This document shows positions 24,168 to 35,301 of a DNA stretch of 64,000 bases, one piece after another. Position numbers and translations under genes: made by a program. Origin of the DNA: Saccharothrix obliqua (GTDB lineage Bacteria; Actinomycetota; Actinomycetes; Mycobacteriales; Pseudonocardiaceae); NCBI RefSeq assembly GCF_019375475.1, contig NZ_JAHXGQ010000007.1, forward strand, positions 1 to 64,000, given 5' to 3'. Below the pieces are notes generated by a model. It did no database searches. It worked only from the letters and a program-made list of their open reading frames with translations, and was not told where the DNA came from. How positions within the stretch are numbered: position 1 is the stretch's first letter; each line of letters starts with the position of its first letter.

Positions 24168-25670
24168 ATGGGAGAGTCAAGCGCGTCCTGGAGACGGTTG
24201 ACGGCGATCGGGGCCGGTGCGGTCCTGGTGGCCGCGGCAACGGTGGGTCCGGCCCACGCGCAACCCACCATCGCCGGCGCCGCGGACGCGATCGCGGACC
24301 GGTTCATCGTGGTGCTGAAGGACAACGGGCGGGCCGACGCGGTCGTGGACCGCGCGCCCGGCCGGGTCACGCACCGCTACCGGGCGGCGCTGAACGGGTT
24401 CGCCGCCACCATGGGCGAGGACGAGGCGAGGCGGCTCGCCGCCGACCCGGACGTCGCCCTGGTGGCGCGGGACCGGGTGTTCCGGGCGGCCGTCGACCAG
24501 TTCGACCCGCCGTGGGGGCTGGACCGCGTCGACCAGCGGGACCTGCCGCTGAACCAGCGGTTCACCGAGGCCGACTCCGGCTCGGGCGTGCACGTCTACG
24601 TCCTCGACAGCGGCATCCGCACGACGCACGCCGACTTCGGGGGTCGGGCGACCTTCGACTACAACGGCCTCGACAACGTGAACTCCGACTGCAACGGCCA
24701 CGGCACGCACGTGGCGGGCACGGTCGGCGGCACGACGCACGGCGTCGCCAAGCAGGTCCGGCTGCACGCCGTGAAGGTGCTCGACTGCGAGGGCACGGGC
24801 ACGCTCTCGTCCGTGATCGCCGGCGTGGACTGGGTGACCGCGAACCACGTGCGCCCGGCGGTGGCGAACATGAGCCTCAGCGGCGGCGGGGACGCGCTGG
24901 TCGACGCGGCCGTGCAGCGGTCCATCGACGCGGGCGTCACGTACGCGGTGGCGGCGGGCAACCACCGCTCCAACGCGTGCGAGCTGTCCCCCGCCCGGAT
25001 CCCCGACGCGCTCACGGTCGCCGCGTCGGACGCCGCGGACCGGCGTGCGGTGTTCTCCAACCGGGGCCCCTGCGTGGACCTCTTCGCGCCGGGCACGTCG
25101 GTGAAGTCCACCTGGAACACCGGCGACTACGCGACGGCTTACCTGGACGGCACGTCGATGGCCTCGCCGCACGTGGCGGGCGCGGCGGCGCTGCACCTGT
25201 CGGCGCACCCGGACGACTCGCCGGCGGCGGTGCGCGCGGCACTCGTCGGCAACGCCACGCCGGGCCGGGTCGCGGACGCGGCCGAAACGCCGAACCGGTT
25301 GCTGTTCACCGGTGTGCCGACGCCCGCGACGCCGGGCGAGGACCGGATCACGCGTGGCGAGCGGCTCACGCCGGGGCAGAGCAAGCGGTCCCCGAACGGC
25401 GCGTTCCGGCTGACCATGCAGACCGACGGGAACCTGGTGCAGTACACGGCGTACGGCGAAGCGCTGTGGTCGACGGGCACGTGGGGCACTGACGCCGCGT
25501 ACGCGATCCTCCAGCCGGACGGCAACTTCGTCCTCTACTCCGCGGCGGGCGTGCCGCGGTGGGACACCCGGACCTGGGGCACCGCCGCCGAGCGGTTCGA
25601 GGTGCAGGACGACTCGAACCTCGTGCTCTACGGCCCGTCCCGCCAGGTCTTCTGGGCCCGCTGGTCGTGA
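24168..25670 (+). CDS. Secreted subtilase (S8) with C-terminal bulb-lectin domain
   Basis: Extracellular serine protease of 500 residues. Sec signal peptide (1-31, ending GPAHA), inhibitor I9 propeptide (about 44-108, FIVVLKD to VARDRVF), proteinase-K/aqualysin-like catalytic domain with Asp147 (VLDSGI), His178 (NGHGTH) and Ser330 (GTSMASP), then a bulb-type mannose-binding-lectin-like domain (about 383-500) with repeated MQTDGNLVQY, LQPDGNFVLY and VQDDSNLVLY strands. Cysteines at DCNGHGT, LDCEGTG, NACELS and RGPCVD probably pair. The lectin tail suggests attachment to a polysaccharide. It overlaps the convergent next gene by 43 bases. Confidence 0.95.
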   Translation: MGESSASWRRLTAIGAGAVLVAAATVGPAHAQPTIAGAADAIADRFIVVLKDNGRADAVVDRAPGRVTHRYRAALNGFAATMGEDEARRLAADPDVALVARDRVFRAAVDQFDPPWGLDRVDQRDLPLNQRFTEADSGSGVHVYVLDSGIRTTHADFGGRATFDYNGLDNVNSDCNGHGTHVAGTVGGTTHGVAKQVRLHAVKVLDCEGTGTLSSVIAGVDWVTANHVRPAVANMSLSGGGDALVDAAVQRSIDAGVTYAVAAGNHRSNACELSPARIPDALTVAASDAADRRAVFSNRGPCVDLFAPGTSVKSTWNTGDYATAYLDGTSMASPHVAGAAALHLSAHPDDSPAAVRAALVGNATPGRVADAAETPNRLLFTGVPTPATPGEDRITRGERLTPGQSKRSPNGAFRLTMQTDGNLVQYTAYGEALWSTGTWGTDAAYAILQPDGNFVLYSAAGVPRWDTRTWGTAAERFEVQDDSNLVLYGPSRQVFWARWS

Positions 25671-26263
25671 CCTCGCAGTCCGCGCACGGCTAGTTCCCGC
25701 GCGGACAACGCGGCGATGACGAGCGGGTCGCGCCGCCGCCAGCCCTCGGCCGGGTCGCCGTCGAAGCGGGCGAGTTCCCGCAGCGGCAACGAGTTCAACG
25801 CGCGCAGCGCCAGCAGGTCGTGGCGGCCGGTGTCGCGCAGGACGCGGGCGGCGGTGGCGCCGCGGGCGTAACGCACCCGCAGCGGCAGCCAGGTGACGAG
25901 CAGGAACGCCACCGGCACGGCGATCAGCGCGACGGCCAGCCACCAGGCGGTGGTCTCGACGACCTCGGCCTGGTGGCGGCCCGCGTCGACCAGCGTCCCG
26001 CCCGCGTCGCGCCCCCGGTCCAGGGCCTCGGCGAGCCGCCCGCCGACCAGGGGCACGTCGCGGGCCTTCGCGGCGGCGTCGGAGAACGTGTCGCGCAGCC
26101 CGTCGCCCGCGCCGGCCAGCTTGTCGCCGGGCACGCGCAGCGCCCGCACGGTGTCCCGCGCGGTGAGCGCGACGACCACCCAGAACACCACCCACACCAC
26201 CGCCGCCAGGTCGGCGAGCACCTGCCGCCACAGCCTGCCGGGCCGGTCCGCGTACCACTTCAT
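25628..26263 (-). CDS. Two-segment membrane protein of unknown function
   Basis: A 211-residue protein with one hydrophobic segment near the N-terminus (about 16-38, LADLAAVVWVVFWVVVAL) and a second in the middle (about 112-134, WWLAVALIAVPVAFLLV), separated by a helical, Ala/Asp/Gly-rich loop. The C-terminal third is basic and cytoplasmic (RYARGATAARVLR). Similar small membrane proteins are common in actinomycetes and have no assigned role. The ATG at MKWYADRPG is preferred to an upstream in-frame start because the latter runs into the divergent regulator's promoter. Confidence 0.75.
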   Translation of the reverse strand: MKWYADRPGRLWRQVLADLAAVVWVVFWVVVALTARDTVRALRVPGDKLAGAGDGLRDTFSDAAAKARDVPLVGGRLAEALDRGRDAGGTLVDAGRHQAEVVETTAWWLAVALIAVPVAFLLVTWLPLRVRYARGATAARVLRDTGRHDLLALRALNSLPLRELARFDGDPAEGWRRRDPLVIAALSARELAVRGLRGHDQRAQKTWRDGP

Positions 26264-26319
26264 GTGGCAAGCAATACCAGGCACGCCGCGGATCGGGCGC
26301 GATCACTAGGGTCGGACCG

Positions 26320-28602
26320 GTGGGGACGACGTTCGGCGATCTGCTGCGCGCACACCGGCGGCGGGCGCGGTTGACCCAGGAGGAGCTGGCGGACGGCTCC
26401 GGGGTCAGCGTTCGCGCCATCAGCGACATGGAACGCGGTCGGGCCAGAGGGCCGCAGCGGCGCACGGTGGAGGCGCTGGCCGGGGTGCTCGCCCTGGCGC
26501 CGGCGGAACTGGACGCGCTGGCCGCCGCCGCCAAGCGGGGCCGGGCGCGGCGGCAACCGGAGGTCGCGCCGTGCGCGCTGCCGCCCGACGTGAGCGACCT
26601 GACCGGCCGGGACCACGCGCTGGCCGCGCTGGGCGAGGTGGTGGCCGGCCCGGGCGCGACGTCCGTGGTCGTGGTGCACGGCCCGCCGGGCGCGGGCAAG
26701 ACGTCGCTCGCGGTGCGTGCCGGCTACCGGTTCGGGCCGCGGTTCGCCGACGGCTGCTTCTTCTTCGACCTGCGCGGCATGGACACCCGGCCGGTGCACC
26801 CGGCGGAGGTGGTGCACCGGGTGCTGCTGGCGCTGGGCGTGCAGCGCCCGCCGGGCAGCGAGGCGGAGCGCTCCGACCTGTACCGGGAACTGCTGCGCAC
26901 CCGTTCCACCATGCTGGTGCTGGACAACGCGGCGGACGAGGCGCAGGTGCGCCCGCTGCTCGCGACGGGCCGGGGTTCGCTGGTGCTGGTGACCTCCCGG
27001 CAGGTGCTGGGCGGGCTGGCGGCGGTGGCGCGGCTGGGGCTGGACGTGCTGGACCGCGACGCGTCGGTGGCGTTGCTGGGCGCGATCGCCGGACCGGCGC
27101 GGGTGGCCGCCGAGCGGGGCGCGGCGCAGGAGGTGGCCCGGTTGTGCGGGCACCTGCCGCTGGCGCTGCGGATCGCGGGCAACCGGCTCGCGGGGCGTCC
27201 GAAGTGGACGGTCGGGCACCTGGCGGGCCAGCTCGCCGACGAGCGCCGCAGGCTCACCGCCCTCACCTCGGGCGACCTCCAGGTGCGCACCGCGTTCGAG
27301 ATGTCCTACCGGCAGCTCGCGGCCAAGGCGGCGTCGTTGTTCCGGCGGCTGTCGGTCGTGCCCGGCGCGACGTTCACGCCGGACCTCGCGGCCGTCGTGG
27401 CGGGCGTGGACCGGCACGAGGCCGAGGACACGCTGGAGGAGCTGGTCGACGCGAGCCTGCTGGACACCGCGGAAACCCCGGGCCGGTACGCGTTCCACGA
27501 CCTGATCCGGGTGTTCGCCGGTGAACGGCTCGTCGACGAGGAGCCCGACCACGACGACACGCGGCGGCGGCTGGTGTCCTGGCTGATCGGCACGGCGGTG
27601 GCGGCGGCGGGCTTCTTCGGCCCGGACGCGCGTGCCACGCCCACGGGTTCCTTGCGGGACAAGGACGACGCGGGCGCGTGGCTGGCCGCGGAGACGGGCA
27701 ACTGGCTCGGCGCGTTGCGGTGGGCGGGCGCGCACGGGATGCACCGCGCGGTGCTGGACCTGGCGACCGCCGTGCACTGGTACTCCGACCAGCGCGGGCG
27801 TGGCGAGACGTGGGCCGAGGTGTTCACCGCGGGTGTCGCGGCGGCCCGCGCCCTGGGCAGCGTGCGGGACGAGGCGGTGCAGCTCAACTTCCTCACCTGG
27901 ACGCGGTGCGTGCTGCTGCGCGATCCCGAGCGGGCGCTGGCGCTGCACGCCGACGCGTGGCGGGCCGCCGTGGCGGCGGGCGACGTGAAGGAGCAGGCGT
28001 GGGCGGTGCACTACCGGGCCGCGTCGGAGATGCGGGCGGGTGACCTGGACTCGGCGCGGGACAGCGCGATCCGCGCGCGGGAGCTGTTCCGCGCCGCGGA
28101 CTACCCGCTGGGCGAGCAGATCTCCTCGTCCTGCCTGGGTCTCGTGCTGCACGCGCTGCACCGGTACGAGGAGGCCGCGGCGGTGCACCGGGCCCTGCTG
28201 GAGACCGTGCGCGCGGGCCGGCTCGACCTGTCGCCGGTGATGGCCGACGAGATGCAGGCGAGCCTGCTGGTGCGCACCGCGGAGAGCCTGGCGGAACTCG
28301 GGCGGTGGGCGGAGGTGCGGGTGGCGGCGACCGAGGCCCTGCACCACGCGGTCGCCGCCACCGCACCCGGCAGCGCCTGCGACGCCCGGTACCTGCTCGG
28401 ACTCGCCCGGTACCGGCTCGGCGACGCGGTGGGGGCGCGTGCCGACCTGGTCGCGGCGGCTGCCTCGGTGGACGAGCGCCGCCCCCACCGCGCGTCCGCG
28501 GTGCTGGGCCTGCTCGCCGACGTGCTCGACGAACTCGGCGACCCGGCCGCGGCGGTGCGGTGCCGGGAGCGGGCCGCCGGATCGCGGTCAGCCGATCGGT
28601 GA
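26320..28602 (+). CDS. HTH-STAND-TPR transcriptional regulator
   Basis: 760-residue regulator with an XRE helix-turn-helix (about 8-65, TQEELADGSGVSVRAISDME), an NB-ARC-type ATPase with Walker A GPPGAGKTS (Lys127) and Walker B TMLVLDN, a GLPL-type motif (HLPLALRIAG), a winged-helix segment and about 300 residues of TPR-like helices. Such STAND proteins act as ATP- and ligand-gated switches. A TAGGGT -10 (26307-26312) is only seven bases from the GTG, so the transcript is likely leaderless. It diverges from the small membrane protein by 56 bases, its likeliest local target. The inducer is unknown. Confidence 0.85.
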   Translation: MGTTFGDLLRAHRRRARLTQEELADGSGVSVRAISDMERGRARGPQRRTVEALAGVLALAPAELDALAAAAKRGRARRQPEVAPCALPPDVSDLTGRDHALAALGEVVAGPGATSVVVVHGPPGAGKTSLAVRAGYRFGPRFADGCFFFDLRGMDTRPVHPAEVVHRVLLALGVQRPPGSEAERSDLYRELLRTRSTMLVLDNAADEAQVRPLLATGRGSLVLVTSRQVLGGLAAVARLGLDVLDRDASVALLGAIAGPARVAAERGAAQEVARLCGHLPLALRIAGNRLAGRPKWTVGHLAGQLADERRRLTALTSGDLQVRTAFEMSYRQLAAKAASLFRRLSVVPGATFTPDLAAVVAGVDRHEAEDTLEELVDASLLDTAETPGRYAFHDLIRVFAGERLVDEEPDHDDTRRRLVSWLIGTAVAAAGFFGPDARATPTGSLRDKDDAGAWLAAETGNWLGALRWAGAHGMHRAVLDLATAVHWYSDQRGRGETWAEVFTAGVAAARALGSVRDEAVQLNFLTWTRCVLLRDPERALALHADAWRAAVAAGDVKEQAWAVHYRAASEMRAGDLDSARDSAIRARELFRAADYPLGEQISSSCLGLVLHALHRYEEAAAVHRALLETVRAGRLDLSPVMADEMQASLLVRTAESLAELGRWAEVRVAATEALHHAVAATAPGSACDARYLLGLARYRLGDAVGARADLVAAAASVDERRPHRASAVLGLLADVLDELGDPAAAVRCRERAAGSRSADR

Positions 28603-28754: not shown

Positions 28755-29141
28755 TCAGTCGCCCACCACGGCGAGGGCGTCGATCTCCACCAGCAGGCCC
28801 GCCGGCAGGCCCACGTACACCGTGGTGCGGGCCGGGTACGGGAGCTGGGTGACGACCTCGTTGTAGGCGTCGTTCATCTCGCCGAAGTGGGCGGCGTCGG
28901 TCAGGTAGACGCGCATCATCAGCACGTCGTCCAGCGACGCGCCGCCCGCTTCCAGCACGGCGACGATGTTCGCCAGCGCCTGCTTGGTCTGCTCCGCGAC
29001 GGTCTCGCCGACGATCTCGCCGGTCGCCGGGTCGAACCCGACCTGGCCCGCCACCTGGAGCACGTTGCCCTTGCGGACGCCCTGGGAGAACGACGCCACC
29101 GGGGTCGGGGCGTTCGCGGTGCGGATCTCGGTCTTGGCCAT
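28755..29141 (-). CDS. ridA: RidA-family enamine/imine deaminase
   Basis: 128-residue protein of the RidA/YjgF/UK114 family, which hydrolyses reactive enamines and imines released by PLP enzymes. Visible motifs: GNVLQVAGQVGFDPATGE, the C-terminal PYPARTTVYVGLP with the conserved Arg that binds the substrate carboxylate, and LLVEIDALAV. It is the last gene of the minus-strand iclR-kinase unit, opposite a PLP deaminase, so it probably clears that enzyme's aminoacrylate-type intermediate. Confidence 0.92.
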   Translation of the reverse strand: MAKTEIRTANAPTPVASFSQGVRKGNVLQVAGQVGFDPATGEIVGETVAEQTKQALANIVAVLEAGGASLDDVLMMRVYLTDAAHFGEMNDAYNEVVTQLPYPARTTVYVGLPAGLLVEIDALAVVGD

Positions 29142-29221
29142 GCGCACTCCTGTGTCGTGTCGCCCCGCCCTGGTTGGCGGGGACGCGTCGGGTTTCCTCT
29201 TCCGCGTGGCGCGGGAGGCCG

Positions 29222-29971
29222 TCAGTCCCGCGGGGTCCAGCCGCACTCGACGGAGGCCGCGCGGGCGGTGGCCCGGAGGTCGGGCAGGTGGCCCAGCAGG
29301 CCGTCGAAGTCGAGCAGCACCTTGGGCACCGACATGGACACCGCCGCCACGACCTCGCCGCGCGCGCCGCGGATGGGCGCGGCGATGCAGTGGATGAAGT
29401 CCTCGTGCTCGGCGTTGTCCACGGCGTAGCCGCGTTCGCGGACGCGGTCCAGCTCCGCCAGGTAGGCGGCGGGCGTGGTGATGGTGTTCGCGGTCAGCGG
29501 CGGGTAGTCGAGGGATTCGGCGATCTCGCGGCGGCGCGGCTCGGGCAGGTCGGACAGCAGGACCTTGGCGACGGCCGTGCAGTGCAGCGGCGCGCGCCTG
29601 CCGATGCGGGAGTACATCCGCATCGGGTGGGTGCTGTCGTACTTGTCGATGTAGATCACCTCGCCGCCCTCGTAGGAGGCCAGGTGCACGGTGTAACCCA
29701 AGCGGGCGTTGAGGTCGCGCAACGCGTTCTCGGCCGCGCGCCGCACGTCGCGCTCCTCCAGGGCCCGGTTGGCGAGGTCGAACAGGGCCGCGCCCAACCG
29801 GTAGTGGTGCACGCCGTCACGCCGCACGAAGTGGTGCGACTCCAGCGTGCGCAGCAGCCTGAGCGCGGTCGACTTGTGCACCCCGATCACGGCGGACAGC
29901 TCGTCCAGCGTGCGGGCGCCCTTGGCCAACTCGCCCATCAGGGTCAGCGCCCGGTCCAGGCTCTGGCTCAT
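29222..29971 (-). CDS. IclR-family transcriptional regulator
   Basis: 249-residue regulator with an N-terminal winged helix (1-65, LDELSAVIGVHKSTALRLLRTLE) and a C-terminal GAF-like effector domain (about 80-245, with IGRRAPLHCTAVAKVLL and IAAPIRGARGEVVAAVSMS). The family includes KdgR, which senses 2-keto-3-deoxygluconate, the predicted product of this locus. The kinase gene stop overlaps... more precisely, this gene's ATG overlaps the kinase reading frame end region in ATGA, so the two are coupled in the order kinase then ridA with iclR between; the 19-bp palindrome before the deaminase gene is its likely operator. Confidence 0.92.
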   Translation of the reverse strand: MSQSLDRALTLMGELAKGARTLDELSAVIGVHKSTALRLLRTLESHHFVRRDGVHHYRLGAALFDLANRALEERDVRRAAENALRDLNARLGYTVHLASYEGGEVIYIDKYDSTHPMRMYSRIGRRAPLHCTAVAKVLLSDLPEPRRREIAESLDYPPLTANTITTPAAYLAELDRVRERGYAVDNAEHEDFIHCIAAPIRGARGEVVAAVSMSVPKVLLDFDGLLGHLPDLRATARAASVECGWTPRD

Positions 29972-30936
29972 CCAGTTCTCCTCAGGTGCGCGGCGGCCCA
30001 CGTCGCCGGGTCCGCGTCCAGCAGCGGCCCGGTCACTTCGGCGGGCAGCGGTTCACCCACATCTTCGCTGGTGAGCAGGCAAGCGGCGGCCTGGAGGTGC
30101 CCGGCACGCAGTCGGCGCGTCGGCGGCAGGCCCGCGAGGTGGGCGGCGAGGTAGCCCGCGGCGAAGCCGTCACCCGCGCCGACCGGTTCCACGACGTCGA
30201 CGCGCAACGCCTCCTGGTAGGTGAAGACGCCGTCCTCGACGAGGGTCACGCCCCGCGCGCCCTCCTTGACGACGATGGTCCGCGGCGTGGGCAGCAGGGC
30301 ACGCAGCTTGGCCGGGTCGCCGGTGCCCCACACGGCCTCGGCCTCGTCCGCGCCGGCCAGCACGACGTCGGCCGCGTCGGCGAGTTCGAGCAGCACGGTC
30401 GGGTCCCGGTCGGCCCACAGCGCGGGCCGCCAGTTGAGGTCGAACGACACCAGGTGGTCGCGCGGCCGGGACAGGGCCGCGCGCAACAGGTCCAGGCAGC
30501 TCTCGGACAACGCGGCGGTGATGCCGCTGACGTGCAGCAGCGCCACGTCGGTGAAGTCGACCCGGCGCAACGCGTCGGGCCCGAGGGCGGACGCCGCGGA
30601 ACCACGCCGGTAGTAGCGGACGGGACTGCCCGCCGCGTCGGCTTCCTTCACGTAGAGACCGGTGGGCCGGGTCGGGTCCACCCGCACCCCGGACACGTCG
30701 ACGCCCGCGCCGCGCACGAAGTCCAGCACGGCGCCGCCGAACGCGTCGGCGCCCACCGCGCCCACCCACCGGCTGCGCAGCCCCAGCCGCGCCAGGTGGA
30801 TGGCCACGTTGGACTCGGCCCCGCCGACGGCGCGGGTCCAGGTGCGCACGTCGCGCACCGGTCCCGGTTCGGCGGGCACCAGCACCACCATGGTCTCGCC
30901 CAGGCACACCACGCCGCCCGTTAGGTCGAACCGCAT
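29968..30936 (-). CDS. PfkB-family sugar kinase, probable KDG kinase
   Basis: Ribokinase-fold kinase of 322 residues. The start VVCLGETMVVLVP and the sugar-binding GGAESNVAIHLARLG are typical of 2-keto-3-deoxygluconate kinases. The catalytic base lies in the anion-hole motif GAGDGFAAG near residue 255. FDLNWRPALW is also conserved in KdgK-like enzymes. Its 3' end and the GTG/ATG of the following regulator share four bases. An excellent GGAGGAG ribosome binding site precedes the ATG. KDG as substrate is inferred from sequence flavour and neighbours; 2-keto-3-deoxygalactonate or fructose are alternatives. Confidence 0.85.
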   Translation of the reverse strand: MRFDLTGGVVCLGETMVVLVPAEPGPVRDVRTWTRAVGGAESNVAIHLARLGLRSRWVGAVGADAFGGAVLDFVRGAGVDVSGVRVDPTRPTGLYVKEADAAGSPVRYYRRGSAASALGPDALRRVDFTDVALLHVSGITAALSESCLDLLRAALSRPRDHLVSFDLNWRPALWADRDPTVLLELADAADVVLAGADEAEAVWGTGDPAKLRALLPTPRTIVVKEGARGVTLVEDGVFTYQEALRVDVVEPVGAGDGFAAGYLAAHLAGLPPTRRLRAGHLQAAACLLTSEDVGEPLPAEVTGPLLDADPATWAAAHLRRTG

Positions 30937-30957
30937 CCGCTCCTCCGAGCCCTTTGA

Positions 30958-30986
30958 TTGACGAGGCGGCAGCCGAATGTTACACA
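30958..30986 (+). promoter_or_regulatory. Promoter of the deaminase-deacylase-permease operon
   Basis: TTGACG, a 17-base spacer and TACACA, placing the start site near 30993, about 50 bases before the GTG. The IclR-type palindrome lies just downstream, where a bound repressor would block elongation. Confidence 0.5.
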
Positions 30987-31011
30987 ACTCATCATCACAT
31001 CGCGCAATAGC

Positions 31012-31030
31012 CGTTGCGAACTACGCAACG
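31012..31030. promoter_or_regulatory. Palindromic operator, probably for the IclR regulator
   Basis: CGTTGCGAACTACGCAACG is a perfect inverted repeat with 7-bp arms around AACTA. It lies between the divergent kinase and deaminase genes and ends 14 bases before the GTG of the deaminase gene. A half-site-like CGCGCAAT is 10 bases upstream. IclR proteins bind short palindromes in such divergent promoters. Confidence 0.6.
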
Positions 31031-31044
31031 TGAGGAGCGAGACA

Positions 31045-32316
31045 GTGGACATCGACCGGGACGCCGTGGCCGCGATCCGCGCGGAGCGCGTGGACTGGCG
31101 CTTCAAGAGCCTGCCCGCGAACGCGTTCGGCGCGACCGTCGGCGAGGTCGCCGACCGCGGGCTGGACCTGTTCGCCGACGGGTTCGTCGGACCGCTGGTG
31201 GTGCTGGACGCCACCGCGCTGGAGCACAACATCGCCACCATGGCGGCGTGGTGCGCCGAGCGCGGCGTCCTGCTGGCGCCGCACGGCAAGACGACCATGG
31301 CTCCGCAGTTGTTCACCCGGCAGCTCGACCGCGGCGCGTGGGGCATCACCGCCGCCAACACCGGCCAACTGCGCGTGTACCGGGCGTTCGGGGTGGGCCG
31401 GGTGTTGTTCGCCAACCAGCTCGTCGACCCGGCCGGGCTCGCCTGGACCGCCGCCGAACTCGCCCGCGACCCGGAGTTCGAGTTCAGCTGCTGGGTCGAC
31501 TCGGTCGCCGGCGTGGCGCGGATGACCGAGCTGCTGGGCGAGGTCGAGCGGCCGGTGGACGTGCTGGTGGAACTCGGCGCGCCCGGCGGCCGGACCGGCG
31601 CGCGTGACCACGCCACCGCCATCGAGGTCGCGCGGGCCGCCGCCGCCAGCCCCGCGCTGCGGCTGGTCGGCGTCGCCGGGTACGAGGGCGCGCTCGCCCA
31701 CGACGCGTCCGAGGCGGCGTTGTCCGCCGTGGACGAGTACCTGGAGGACCTGCGCGAACTGGTCGTGGAGATCAAGGACCTGTACGAGGTGGACGTCCCG
31801 CTGGTCACCGGCGGCGGCAGCGCCTACTTCGACCAGGTGGCGACGGCGTTGCGCGGGCCGTGGCCGTTCACCGTGCGGCCGGTGCTGCGCAGCGGCGCCT
31901 ACATCACCCACGACGACGGCTTCTACCGCGGCATCTCGCCGTTCGGCCGGGTCGCGGGCGAGCAGCCGTTCCGGTCCGCGTTGCGGGCGTGGGCGCAGGT
32001 CACCTCCCGGCCGGAACCCGGTCTGGCGCTGCTCACCATGGGCAAGCGCGACGCGTCGTTCGACGAGGGCCTGCCGGTGCCCCGGGTGTGGCGCGGGCGT
32101 GACGGCGTGACGCGGCCCGTCGAGGCGACCGTGACCGCGCTCAACGACCAGCACACGTTCCTCTCGCTGCCCGCGGGCTCGCCGGTCGAGGTCGGCGACT
32201 GGATCGGCCTCGGCCTGTCCCACCCCTGCACGGTGTTCGACAAGTGGCAACTCATCCCGGTGGTCAACGGCGCCGACGGCACCACCGTGGTGGACCTGGT
32301 GCGCACGTACTTCTAG
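31045..32316 (+). CDS. PLP amino-acid deaminase/aldolase (D-threonine aldolase-D-serine dehydratase fold)
   Basis: Fold-type III PLP enzyme of 423 residues: alanine-racemase-like N-terminal barrel with the Schiff-base lysine K82 in APHGKTTMAP, and a C-terminal DSD1-like beta domain. VVLDATALEHNIATM, GGGSAYFD and the C-terminal GLGLSHPCTVFDKW, which supplies metal ligands His and Cys, are family hallmarks. It should deaminate a D-configured amino acid; in context D-glucosaminate to 2-keto-3-deoxygluconate is the attractive proposal. GTG chosen because GAGGAG lies eight bases upstream. First gene of a three-gene operon. Confidence 0.85.
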   Translation: MDIDRDAVAAIRAERVDWRFKSLPANAFGATVGEVADRGLDLFADGFVGPLVVLDATALEHNIATMAAWCAERGVLLAPHGKTTMAPQLFTRQLDRGAWGITAANTGQLRVYRAFGVGRVLFANQLVDPAGLAWTAAELARDPEFEFSCWVDSVAGVARMTELLGEVERPVDVLVELGAPGGRTGARDHATAIEVARAAAASPALRLVGVAGYEGALAHDASEAALSAVDEYLEDLRELVVEIKDLYEVDVPLVTGGGSAYFDQVATALRGPWPFTVRPVLRSGAYITHDDGFYRGISPFGRVAGEQPFRSALRAWAQVTSRPEPGLALLTMGKRDASFDEGLPVPRVWRGRDGVTRPVEATVTALNDQHTFLSLPAGSPVEVGDWIGLGLSHPCTVFDKWQLIPVVNGADGTTVVDLVRTYF

Positions 32317-32329
32317 AAAGGACGGCGGC

Positions 32330-33916
32330 GTGGACATCGTCTTCAAGGGCGCGCTCGTGGTGGACGGCACGGGTTCGCCCGGCTACCGGGCGGACGTGGG
32401 CGTGCGTGACGGCCGGATCGCCGGGATCGGGTCGGTGGGCGGGCGGCGGGAGGTCGACGCCGCCGGGCTCGTGCTCGCACCCGGTTTCATCGACATGCAC
32501 TCGCACTCCGACCTGCGACTGCTGGCCGAACCCGACCACCTGGCCAAGGTCTCGCAGGGCGTCACCACCGAGGTGCTCGGCCAGGACGGGCTGTCCTACG
32601 CGCCCGTCGACGACGAGGTGCTGGCCGCGCTGCGCGCCCAGCTCGCCGGCTGGAACGGCGACCCGGACGGGTTCGCCTGGGACTGGCGGTCCGTCGGCGA
32701 GTACCTGGACCGGCTCGACCGCGGCATCGCCGTGAACGCCGCCTACCTGGTGCCGCAGGGCACGCTGCGGATGCTGTGCGTCGGCTGGGACGACCGGCCC
32801 GCCACCCCCGCCGAGCTGGACCGGATGCGCGAGGTGCTGGCGCGGTCCCTGGCCGAGGGCGCGGTCGGCATGTCGTCCGGCCTCACCTACACGCCCGGCA
32901 TGTACGCGGGGTCGGCCGAGCTGACCGCGCTGTGCCGGGTGGTCGCCGAGCACGGCGGCTTCTACAGCCCCCACCACCGCAGCTACGGCGCGGGCGCGCT
33001 GGAGGCGTACGCGGAGATGGTGGAGGTGACGCGGGCGGCGGGCTGCCCCCTGCACCTCGCGCACGCCACGATGAACTTCGAGGTGAACCGGGGACGCGCG
33101 GGCGACCTGCTGGCGCTGCTGGACGACGCGATCGCGGCGGGCGCGGACATCACCCTGGACACCTACCCGTACCTGCCGGGCGCGACCTACCTGTCCGCGC
33201 TGCTGCCGAGCTGGGCGGGCGAGGGCGGACCGGACGCCACCCTCGCCCGGCTGACCGACCCGGACGACCGCGAGCGCATCCGCGTCGAGCTGGAGGAGAC
33301 CGGGTCCGACGGCTGCCACGGCGTGCCCGTCGACTGGACGACCATCGAGATCAACGGCGTGCGCCGCGCCGACCACGCCCACCTGGTGGGCCGCAGCGTG
33401 GCCGAGTCGGCACGCGTCGCGGGCAGACCGCCCGCCGAGCTGTACTTCGACGTCCTGGTCGCCGAGCGGCTGGGCACCTCGTGCCTGATGCACGTCGGCC
33501 ACGAGGAGAACGTGCAGGCGATCATGCGGCACCCGGCGCACACCGGCGGCAGCGACGGGCTGCTGGTCGGCGACCGGCCGCACCCGCGCGCGTGGGGCAC
33601 GTTCCCCCGCTACCTGGCCCGGTACGTGCGTGAACTGGGCGTGCTGAGCCTGGAGGACTGCGTCGCGCACCTGACCGGCCGCGCCGCCAAGCGCCTGCGG
33701 CTCGCCGACCGCGGCCTGGTCCGCGAGGGCTACGCGGCCGACCTCGTGCTGTTCGACCCGCACGAGGTGGCCGACACCGCGACGTTCGACCAGCCGCGCC
33801 AAGCCGCCAACGGCATCCCCTACGTGCTCGTCAACGGCGTGCCCGTGATCGACGACGGCAGGCGCACCGACGCCCTGCCCGGCCACTCCCTGCGCAACCA
33901 CCGGAGCCGACCTTGA
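32330..33916 (+). CDS. N-acyl-D-amino-acid deacylase family amidohydrolase
   Basis: Metal-dependent amidohydrolase of 528 residues. FIDMHSHSD with His57 and His59 binds zinc, and the C-terminal GSDGLLVGDRPHPRAWGTF region carries the catalytic Asp. In classical D-aminoacylases the next motif reads GNCG with a zinc-binding Cys; here it is GQDGLSYAP, so the metal site differs. That places it outside the well studied D-amino-acid acylases and leaves room for another N-acetyl substrate such as N-acetylglucosaminate. GTG start 13 bases after the deaminase stop with AAAGGA before it; its stop overlaps the permease start by one base (TGATG). Confidence 0.85.
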   Translation: MDIVFKGALVVDGTGSPGYRADVGVRDGRIAGIGSVGGRREVDAAGLVLAPGFIDMHSHSDLRLLAEPDHLAKVSQGVTTEVLGQDGLSYAPVDDEVLAALRAQLAGWNGDPDGFAWDWRSVGEYLDRLDRGIAVNAAYLVPQGTLRMLCVGWDDRPATPAELDRMREVLARSLAEGAVGMSSGLTYTPGMYAGSAELTALCRVVAEHGGFYSPHHRSYGAGALEAYAEMVEVTRAAGCPLHLAHATMNFEVNRGRAGDLLALLDDAIAAGADITLDTYPYLPGATYLSALLPSWAGEGGPDATLARLTDPDDRERIRVELEETGSDGCHGVPVDWTTIEINGVRRADHAHLVGRSVAESARVAGRPPAELYFDVLVAERLGTSCLMHVGHEENVQAIMRHPAHTGGSDGLLVGDRPHPRAWGTFPRYLARYVRELGVLSLEDCVAHLTGRAAKRLRLADRGLVREGYAADLVLFDPHEVADTATFDQPRQAANGIPYVLVNGVPVIDDGRRTDALPGHSLRNHRSRP

Positions 33917-35301
33917 TGGACTGGCTACAGCACTCCACCGGCGGACTGCTGACGCTGTCCGGCTTGAGCATCGCCCTGCTCCTGCTGCTGATCATCCGGC
34001 TGCGGGTCGAGCCCTTCATCGCGCTGCTGGTGGTCGGCCTGCTGCTCGCGCTGGCCGCGGGCCTGCCGGTCGAGCAGCTGGTGGGCTCGGCGCAGAAGGC
34101 GTCGGGATCGCTGCTGGAGACCGGGTTCGGCGGCATCCTCGGCCACGTCGCCGTGATCATCGGCCTCGGCACCCTGCTGGGCTCCGTCCTGGAGGCGTCC
34201 GGCGGCGCGGCCGTCCTGACCCGCACGTTGCTGCGCCTGGCGGGTGAGCGGCGCGCGCCGCTCGCCATGGGCCTGGCGGGGCTGATCTTCGGCGTGCCGG
34301 TGTTCTTCGACATCGGCATCTTCGTCCTCGCGCCGCTGGTCTACACGGCGGCCAAGGCGGGTGGGCGGTCCATCGTCCTCTACGCCCTGCCGCTGCTGGC
34401 GGGCCTGTCCGTGATGCACGCGTTCATGCCGCCCCACCCCGGGCCGGTGGCGGCGGCCGGGTTGCTCGGCGTGTCGCTGGGCTGGGTGATCGTGATGGCG
34501 TTGGCCGTCGGCATCCCGGCGTGGTTCGTCGGCGGCGTGCTGTTCTCGACGTGGATCGGCAAGCGGGTCGTGGTGCCGCCGCCGGAGGAGATGCTGGCCG
34601 CCGCCGAGAAGGCCCGCACCGACCGCGCCGAACCACCGCTGTCGCTGGTGCTGGGGATCATCGCCGTGCCGCTGGTGCTGATCCTCGCGGGCACGTTCGG
34701 CAGCATCCTGCTGCCCAAGGGCTCCACCGTGCTGTCGGTGTTCACGTTCTTCGGCACACCCGCCGTGGCGTTGACCATCGCGGTGCTGCTCGCCTTCTGG
34801 CTGCTGGGCTTCCGGCGCGGCATGAGCCGGGCGGCGGTCGCGGACCTCGCCGCGGGCGCGTTGCGGCCGGTGGCGATGATCCTGCTGGTGGTCGGCGCGG
34901 GCGGGTTCTTCGGCGCGGTGCTGTCGGCGACCGGCGTGGGCAAGGTGCTCGCGGGCGAACTGGCCGACCTCGGCCTGCCGGTGATCGCGTTGTCCTACGT
35001 GATCAGCTGCGCGCTGCGCATCGCGCAGGGCTCGGCGACCGTGGCGATCGTGACCACCACCGGCATCGTCGCACCCGTCATCGCGGGCCTGGGCTACTCG
35101 CAGCCGCAGCTCGCGCTGGTCGTGATGGCGATCTCGGCCGGCTCGATCATCGCCTCGCACGTCAACGACGGCGGCTTCTGGATCGTCTCCCGCTACTTCG
35201 GCCTGTCGGTCAAGGAGACGCTCAAGACGTGGACGGTGCTGGAGACCGTGCTGTCCGTGGTGGGCTTCGCGGTGGCGGCGCTGCTCAGCCTCGTGGTCTG
35301 A
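33916..35301 (+). CDS. GntP-family sugar-acid/H+ permease
   Basis: 461-residue integral membrane protein with about 12 hydrophobic helices. LIIRLRVEPFIALLVVGLLLAL (in parts: LRVEPFIALL), GGILGHVAVIIGLGTLLG, MPPHPGPVAAAGLLG and ASHVNDGGFWIV are the conserved GntP/Gnt-II signatures of proton-coupled gluconate and related aldonate uptake. The ATG directly overlaps the deacylase stop, which is clear operon coupling. In this context it probably imports an aldonic or aminoaldonic acid, rather than plain gluconate, because no gluconate kinase is present. Confidence 0.92.
   Translation: MDWLQHSTGGLLTLSGLSIALLLLLIIRLRVEPFIALLVVGLLLALAAGLPVEQLVGSAQKASGSLLETGFGGILGHVAVIIGLGTLLGSVLEASGGAAVLTRTLLRLAGERRAPLAMGLAGLIFGVPVFFDIGIFVLAPLVYTAAKAGGRSIVLYALPLLAGLSVMHAFMPPHPGPVAAAGLLGVSLGWVIVMALAVGIPAWFVGGVLFSTWIGKRVVVPPPEEMLAAAEKARTDRAEPPLSLVLGIIAVPLVLILAGTFGSILLPKGSTVLSVFTFFGTPAVALTIAVLLAFWLLGFRRGMSRAAVADLAAGALRPVAMILLVVGAGGFFGAVLSATGVGKVLAGELADLGLPVIALSYVISCALRIAQGSATVAIVTTTGIVAPVIAGLGYSQPQLALVVMAISAGSIIASHVNDGGFWIVSRYFGLSVKETLKTWTVLETVLSVVGFAVAALLSLVV

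Follow-up and report, generated by a model that had tools for sequence, protein, structure and literature searches.

A candidate IclR-controlled regulon for C1-oxidised chito-oligosaccharides in Saccharothrix obliqua and related actinomycetes

What happens to the oxidised sugar ends that lytic polysaccharide monooxygenases (LPMOs) produce from chitin, when the degrader is an actinomycete? Actinomycetes have a reputation as especially effective degraders of chitin and carry several LPMO genes, according to the accessible parts of a 2018 review on chitinolysis in actinobacteria (PMC6097792), and the fate of LPMO-oxidised ends in these bacteria is not stated in the papers found. The question is raised here by a six-gene locus at positions 28755-35301 of a 64,000-nucleotide stretch of the Saccharothrix obliqua genome (contig NZ_JAHXGQ010000007.1, positions 1 to 64,000; hereafter the window), in which genes for RidA, an IclR-family regulator and a PfkB sugar kinase run leftward, and genes for a pyridoxal phosphate (PLP) deaminase, an N-deacylase and a GntP-family permease run rightward. 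We consider it highly probable, judging from the sequences compared, that this locus forms the central catabolic part of a regulon under IclR control that serves the use of C1-oxidised chito-oligosaccharides. An original prediction, made from the window alone, had proposed the chain from N-acetyl-D-glucosaminate (GlcNAc1A) through glucosaminate and 2-keto-3-deoxygluconate (KDG) to its 6-phosphate (KDPG); that outline is very likely correct, and the system extends beyond what was proposed, to a dispersed and apparently IclR-controlled regulon.

A comparable route is known from Pseudoalteromonas, where OngB deacetylates GlcNAc1A, OngC deaminates the product to KDG and KdgK phosphorylates it, whereas the RidA protein OngD is required with a role given as unknown, and the repressor OngR belongs to the MurR/RpiR family (PMC9537276, in the portions available). 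Ong-type sets from Vibrio and from a Klebsiella plasmid were used here as references, and the window cluster has the same genes as these bar the regulator and importer; by eye, the PDB chain 9g5m corresponds to the Klebsiella reference protein. In the Klebsiella pneumoniae plasmid set (L015:1897-9161) the kinase and aldolase are annotated as 2-keto-3-deoxygalactonate (KDGal) kinase and KDPGal aldolase. Our literature searches found no paper on a GlcNAc1A route in actinomycetes: the available text of the 2018 review contains no words beginning with lactone, aldonic or gluconic; the terms IclR, aminoacylase, deacylase, lactonase and gluconate are absent from the accessible main text of a Streptomyces venezuelae chitin RNA-seq study (PMC12370203); and nothing on product catabolism was found in the portions at hand of a Streptomyces coelicolor LPMO paper (PMC10067821). 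In Aeromonas, ong genes were looked for and the route was not confirmed, as far as the accessible text goes (PMC11653859).

Pfam and NCBIfam agree on the families of all six window genes, and the gene grouping originally predicted is present, as six genes rather than the announced seven functions (six had in fact been named). The divergent PfkB and deaminase starts are separated by 108 bases. The kinase, whose closest solved relative is a KDG kinase (PDB 1v19), scores 176 bits against the NCBIfam KDG/KDGal kinase model (curated cut-off 400), and the regulator 170 bits against KdgR (curated cut-off 275); both family assignments of the original prediction hold, while the more specific names KDG-type kinase and KdgR are putative, because these scores lie under the curated cut-offs. 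As in the ong system, deacylase, PLP deaminase, RidA and sugar kinase all lie in one cluster. The same grouping was found in named loci of Streptomyces, Amycolatopsis, Lentzea, Kribbella, Actinomadura, Tsukamurella and Arthrobacter, and therefore does not represent a chance run of genes; the nearest deacylases among named genomes, at 85-88% identity, are from Saccharothrix.

The deaminase shares 36-37% identity with the proteins that occupy the place of OngC in the Vibrio and Klebsiella sets, and 65 positions, among them those of the HGKTxM and SHPC motifs, are invariant in six aligned sequences, which bears out its assignment to the OngC family. In a tree from which identical rows were dropped, and which carries a warning of long branches, the window protein falls in another group than the OngC-position proteins. 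One PDB relative, 3gwq, is named D-serine deaminase in that database; we take it to be from a Burkholderia. On plasmids of Pantoea and Klebsiella variicola, a related deaminase is found with RidA, IclR and an amino-acid ATP-binding cassette (ABC) transporter, and neither a deacylase nor a sugar kinase is annotated in these stretches.

The deacylase is a different matter. Its best PDB sequence matches are the D-aminoacylases AfDam (1M7J, 282 bits) and BbDam (3GIP, 266 bits); relative to the Pseudoalteromonas enzyme (PpOngB), however, Cys97 is replaced by Asp, Glu226 by Tyr, Lys254 by Thr and Ser292 by Thr, whereas Cys, Glu and Lys occupy positions 97, 226 and 254 in AfDam and in all three OngB sequences compared. 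The AfDam-type combination of a Cys ligand and a Lys for the alpha-carboxylate is missing from the window protein. Kept from PpOngB are His68, His70, Tyr194, His222, His252, Tyr285, Asp368 and Arg379, and with His68, His70, His222, His252 and Asp368 retained the site could bind one or two metals; an extra stretch precedes the catalytic Asp, and position 298 (Gln in PpOngB) reads as Leu by ungapped counting and as Arg in a MAFFT alignment. The substitutions are characteristic of a whole group: among 64 rows of at least 55% identity, which represent 56 distinct sequences and include some genomes twice through overlapping stretches, Asp97 and Tyr226 occur in 64/64, Thr254 in 62/64 (His in two) and Thr292 in 63/64, and Asp at position 97 is also invariant among 29 aligned orthologs. 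In a midpoint-rooted tree, OngB joins AfDam and a BbDam fragment (support 100/98) and the group of the window protein stands apart (100/94). We reject membership in the OngB family on this grouping together with the residues at 97, 226, 254 and 292, which corrects the original prediction on this point. If the protein nevertheless shares the OngB activity, GlcNAc1A deacetylation would have arisen twice. As further observations on this family, the deacylase homologs of two loci (L118, L122) lie near a D-threonine-aldolase-like enzyme, which replaces the OngC-family deaminase, and sugar ABC genes, and deacylase genes that are split or carry an in-frame stop were seen in three genomes (G466, in L119/L180; G418; G671).

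To place the locus in a genomic context, 298 genomes of the order were surveyed, of which 59 contain the deacylase (called at E 1e-110) and 239 do not. KDPG aldolase, the enzyme that would complete the route, is present in 59/59 deacylase genomes versus 111/239 others; it is encoded by the gene next to the deacylase in 11 of the 59, and the two genes are also adjacent in Tsukamurella, in Arthrobacter and at 9 loci from a set of 80 named ones, Kribbella supplying five of the nine. The genome of S. obliqua (8.04 Mb, 49 contigs, 96.8% complete) has two KDPG-aldolase matches (PF01081), one directly 3' of an edd-like gene; they lie on contigs C5 and C3, outside the window, as had been stated. The genome search suggested at that point also returned five matches to the LPMO family AA10: a strong one of 204 bits and four weak ones of 74-87 bits. 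The nearest PDB entries of the strong match are named chitin-binding protein (6if7) and CbpD, with one of the top four named cellulose-binding. AA10 matches occur in 105 of the 298 genomes (both AA10 and deacylase in 51, deacylase alone in 8, AA10 alone in 54 and neither of them in 185), that is, in 51/59 deacylase genomes versus 54/239 others; within the own family the figures are 36/37 versus 6/17 (p 1.4e-6, or p 6.6e-5 with genome size as covariate, values that ignore shared ancestry). When only strong AA10 matches are counted, defined by a best E under 1e-40 with a cut chosen after the list was seen, the association becomes weaker: 40/59 versus 45/239 in the order, and 26/37 versus 3/17 in the own family (p 4e-4, with the same disregard of ancestry).

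The neighbourhood of the deacylase gene was scanned over up to 20 kb in 57 other genomes of the order, plus an 11-kb contig of G417 (58 loci), using reference proteins as queries. In 24 of the 58, genes for a lactonase, a substrate-binding protein (SBP), a permease and a GH20 enzyme are linked to the cluster; these 24 loci come from 10 genera, all within the own family, which has 36 deacylase genomes besides that of S. obliqua, and one of them (G599) has no deaminase nearby. Pfam confirmed one GH20 enzyme, one lactonase and two SBPs in the extended loci. The genes usually run deaminase-deacylase-(aldolase)-(GntP)-lactonase-SBP-permease-GH20; three genomes (G512, G542 and G572) and four named Actinokineospora loci instead display lactonase-GH20-SBP-permease without GntP, which argues for functional linkage and not for one frozen arrangement. 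Among the 80 named loci, which overlap in organisms with the 58 scanned and are not independent of them, GH20 is linked in 30, in 8 genera and two gene orders. Absences at G417, G443, G540 and some named loci count for little, since these lie near contig ends. In S. obliqua the SBP-permease-GH20 module is unlinked, on contig C44 (60% identity to the reference for the SBP, 55% for GH20), and contig C12 carries a relative of the lactonase at 44% identity; therefore, this genome holds the full set in dispersed form. Further, an SBP of the S. obliqua type was sought in 29 family genomes and found in 8 of the 12 with a deacylase but no linked module, and in 0 of the 17 without deacylase, which gives, with linked cases included, 33/37 versus 0/17, the 17 having been searched at E 1e-60 for this SBP type only and not for that of G512, G542 and G572. 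GH20 itself was seen in 32 of these 33 genomes, the stretch from the remaining one (G530) being too short to reach it. Of the eight relatives with the SBP away from the deacylase, six have it unlinked to the whole core, and in two (G486, G576) it lies beside deaminase, IclR and RidA, with the deacylase gene elsewhere. By eye, four lactonases have twin-arginine-like signals and the S. obliqua SBP a lipoprotein signal; none was seen in two GH20 proteins or in the Actinokineospora lactonase.

A shared palindrome connects these dispersed parts. The window promoter contains TTGCG-N5-CGCAA, which, allowing up to two mismatches, is found in 137 of 143 deaminase upstream regions (duplicates included, as some genomes appear twice) versus 370 of 2860 shuffled regions. 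Refinement on 90 distinct sites gave GTTGC(A/G)N5(C/T)GCAAC, in short GTTGC-N7-GCAAC. Four exact copies exist in the S. obliqua genome; the one in the window promoter scores 24.4, and another, with a higher score of 27.1, belongs to the unlinked module, where it begins 40 bp ahead of the putative SBP start. A one-mismatch copy (score 19.4) about 80 bp before the lactonase gene is only suggestive, as such copies are no commoner than a reversed control pattern. Across 1.65 Mb of named loci, 94 sites score at least 19: 77 are in deaminase/kinase promoters, the kind of site from which the motif was derived, so that their presence follows by construction, 6 lie before SBP genes, 4 before Actinokineospora GH20 genes and 7 elsewhere. 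The number expected before SBP or GH20 is about 0.05. In all 8 relatives whose SBP is away from the deacylase, the palindrome stands just upstream of the SBP gene, at sites outside the motif training, and in G576 the relocated deacylase gene carries a palindrome of its own. The unlinked ABC-GH20 module is tied to the cluster by this palindrome and is apparently co-regulated with it.

Gene content, synteny, the common palindrome, phyletic coupling and the presence of AA10 and aldolase genes are thus direct observations, onto which the following scheme can be drawn. LPMOs, or other C1 oxidation, would yield oligosaccharides ending in N-acetylglucosaminic lactone or acid; the lactonase would open the lactone, the lipoprotein-fed ABC transporter would import the oligomer and the GH20 enzyme would remove GlcNAc, while GntP would take up free GlcNAc1A. 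Inside the cell, the deacylase would convert GlcNAc1A into D-glucosaminate and acetate, the PLP enzyme would eliminate the C3 hydroxyl of D-glucosaminate, and RidA would aid enamine hydrolysis to KDG and ammonia; the PfkB kinase would then form KDPG, and KDPG aldolase would split it into pyruvate and glyceraldehyde 3-phosphate. Control would come from the IclR protein, whose ligand is probably KDG or some other intermediate and whose binding sites would be the GTTGC-N7-GCAAC copies between the divergent genes and ahead of the unlinked SBP-ABC-GH20 operon. Every substrate in this scheme is a predicted one, as are the choice of IclR as the binding protein, the direction and ligand of the regulation, and the cell location of lactonase and GH20 enzyme.

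Several results weigh against this reading. The most serious concern the deacylase, whose substrate is the weakest step of the proposed route. It lacks residues that bind GlcNAc1A in PpOngB, and its substrate may differ because these residues, including the conserved Cys97 and Lys254, are not kept. OngB (9KB1/9KB3), a relative of the D-aminoacylases, has been solved in complex with GlcNAc1A, and the paper describes the metal ligand Cys97 and also Lys254 as conserved in both of the known groups, D-aminoacylases included (PMC12017989, in its accessible portions); the loss of Lys254 is, on that description, the strongest reason to doubt the substrate. As for AA10, apart from the shared ancestry mentioned above, 8 of the 59 deacylase genomes have no match, which rules out LPMOs as a strict requirement: LPMO products stand as the likeliest source, as first proposed, and not as the sole one. 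Ten of the 36 AA10-matching deacylase genomes of the family, and also G594, have the weak AA10 type only, one weak-type protein of S. obliqua has no solved relative at all, and in one genus (g4, family f3) 42 of the 43 AA10-bearing genomes lack the deacylase at E 1e-110, only G565 having it. The linked extension was seen in the own family only, and the SBP reaches no curated chitobiose model (29 of 400 bits for NgcE). With regard to the palindrome, two of the four exact copies are inside called open reading frames (scores 18.0 and 16.5), one-mismatch copies are rarer than those of the reversed control (88 versus 122), the motif precedes SBP or GH20 in only 10 of 31 linked named loci and is lacking there in 21, and the relocated deacylase gene of G486 has none at a score of at least 17.

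Other readings accommodate some of these points. The same chain might act on another 2-acetamido-2-deoxy-aldonic acid, such as N-acetylgalactosaminate, or on GlcNAc1A made by sugar oxidases instead of LPMOs; the eight genomes devoid of AA10 would suit this, as would the pocket residues unlike those of OngB, the best kinase model, which describes a dual KDG/KDGal kinase, and the annotated KDGal kinase and KDPGal aldolase of the Klebsiella ong-type set. GH20 enzymes may cut N-acetylgalactosamine too. Nevertheless, we think this unlikely in view of the AA10 association in the own family, which holds for strong matches alone, and of the in-operon Tsukamurella aldolase, annotated as 2-keto-4-hydroxyglutarate (KHG)/KDPG aldolase.

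The family names D-aminoacylase and D-ser_dehydrat, the presence of DsdX among the GntP relatives, and the related deaminase that in Pantoea and K. variicola has RidA and an amino-acid ABC transporter as neighbours would rather suggest a D-amino-acid operon, in which N-acyl-D-amino acids are deacylated, D-serine or D-threonine is deaminated and RidA clears the enamine. Such an operon offers no role for the sugar kinase, the KDPG aldolase (adjoining in 11 of 59), the GH20 enzyme, the lactonase or the sugar ABC transporter; we rejected it as the leading explanation because sugar kinase, KDPG aldolase, GH20 and lactonase do not fit, and regard it as very improbable. Extremely unlikely, in our judgement, is peptidoglycan recycling, acting on muropeptide amino sugars or D-amino acids: a Natrialba deacylase homolog does lie beside NlpC/P60 and dipeptide-epimerase genes, but no such genes were noticed among the called neighbours at the inspected loci, where no profile search was made, and the lactonase, the sugar kinase, the KDPG aldolase and the AA10 coupling would be left unexplained. 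The chain from GlcNAc1A through glucosaminate and KDG to KDPG is the best-supported reading, on the basis of AA10, the aldolase, the linked GH20, ABC and lactonase genes, and the palindrome.

The features of the locus are collected in Table 1. To its left (24168-28602), the open reading frame list shows, on inspection by eye, a secreted protease resembling subtilisin, perhaps with a lectin-like tail, and a regulator that combines a helix-turn-helix with an NTPase-like domain; neither has an evident link to the cluster.

Table 1. Genes and putative operator of the window locus, with the basis of each assignment.
Feature	Coordinates	Strand	Basis
RidA (enamine/imine deaminase), OngD counterpart	28755..29141	-	TIGR00004, 113 bits (cut-off 106), and Pfam
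IclR-family regulator	29222..29971	-	NCBIfam best match KdgR, under its cut-off; Pfam agrees
PfkB sugar kinase	29968..30936	-	Best matches KDG kinases, under NCBIfam cut-off
Palindrome GTTGCGAACTACGCAAC, putative IclR operator	31013..31029	.	In divergent promoter
PLP deaminase, OngC family	31045..32316	+	D-ser_dehydrat and Ala_racemase_N; HGKTxM and SHPC motifs invariant across six aligned sequences
D-aminoacylase-like N-deacylase, separate group	32330..33916	+	Asp, Tyr and Thr at PpOngB positions 97, 226 and 254
GntP-family sugar-acid permease	33916..35301	+	TIGR00791, 385 bits (cut-off 293), and Pfam

S. obliqua also possesses a second, paralogous set (L022, contig C3:256000-275500) with a RidA-like protein, KDPG aldolase, IclR, PfkB kinase, SBP, ABC permeases and a deacylase homolog that keeps the same Asp and Tyr as the window protein. 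There, a threonine-synthase-like PLP enzyme (by eye) replaces the deaminase, a short-chain dehydrogenase/reductase (by eye), a phosphotriesterase (PTE)-family protein and a Gfo/Idh oxidoreductase are added, and a similar palindrome precedes the SBP gene; the set gives the impression of an oxidative pathway for a different N-acetylated sugar.

Should the actinomycete pathway prove to be an independent assembly, the known route would have come together at least twice on the basis of a single deaminase family, and LPMO products would have a defined use in one major group of chitin-degrading soil bacteria. The route is testable, with a predicted operator and regulon, and accounts for genes annotated as D-aminoacylase and alanine racemase; it also offers a possible second origin of GlcNAc1A deacetylation for comparison with OngB.

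Among known systems, chitobiose import of the DasABC type occurs in Streptomyces. The likeness to it here consists of the sugar SBP, permeases and GntR-UTRA regulator that lie beside the cluster in one Actinokineospora locus (L229), whose identity with DasA and DasR was not confirmed by curated models. The D-aminoacylases AfDam and BbDam, although the best PDB matches of the deacylase, are set apart from it by the neighbours of the window gene, which point to sugar acids; PpOngB belongs to the same amidohydrolase family and is nearer to AfDam and BbDam (9KB1/9KB3, PMC12017989, in part). The closest parallel is the ong system of Pseudoalteromonas prydzensis and other Gammaproteobacteria (PMC9537276, in part), which likewise comprises deacylase, OngC-family deaminase, RidA, sugar kinase, importer, regulator, GH20 and AA10, with the same predicted chain to KDPG. 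It differs in its MurR/RpiR regulator OngR and its SSS importer OngIT, in place of which the actinomycete locus has IclR and GntP; moreover, the window deacylase comes from another group, a sugar ABC transporter and a lactonase are tied to the cluster, and the ABC-GH20 module is unlinked in some genomes and yet bears the same palindrome. Since regulator, importers and deacylase origin all differ, the actinomycete variant is distinct from the marine pathway, and it is rather likely to be an independently assembled route for oxidised chitin, built on an OngB-independent, Asp-ligand GlcNAc1A deacetylase and an IclR regulon that takes in an unlinked ABC-GH20 operon and perhaps the lactonase.

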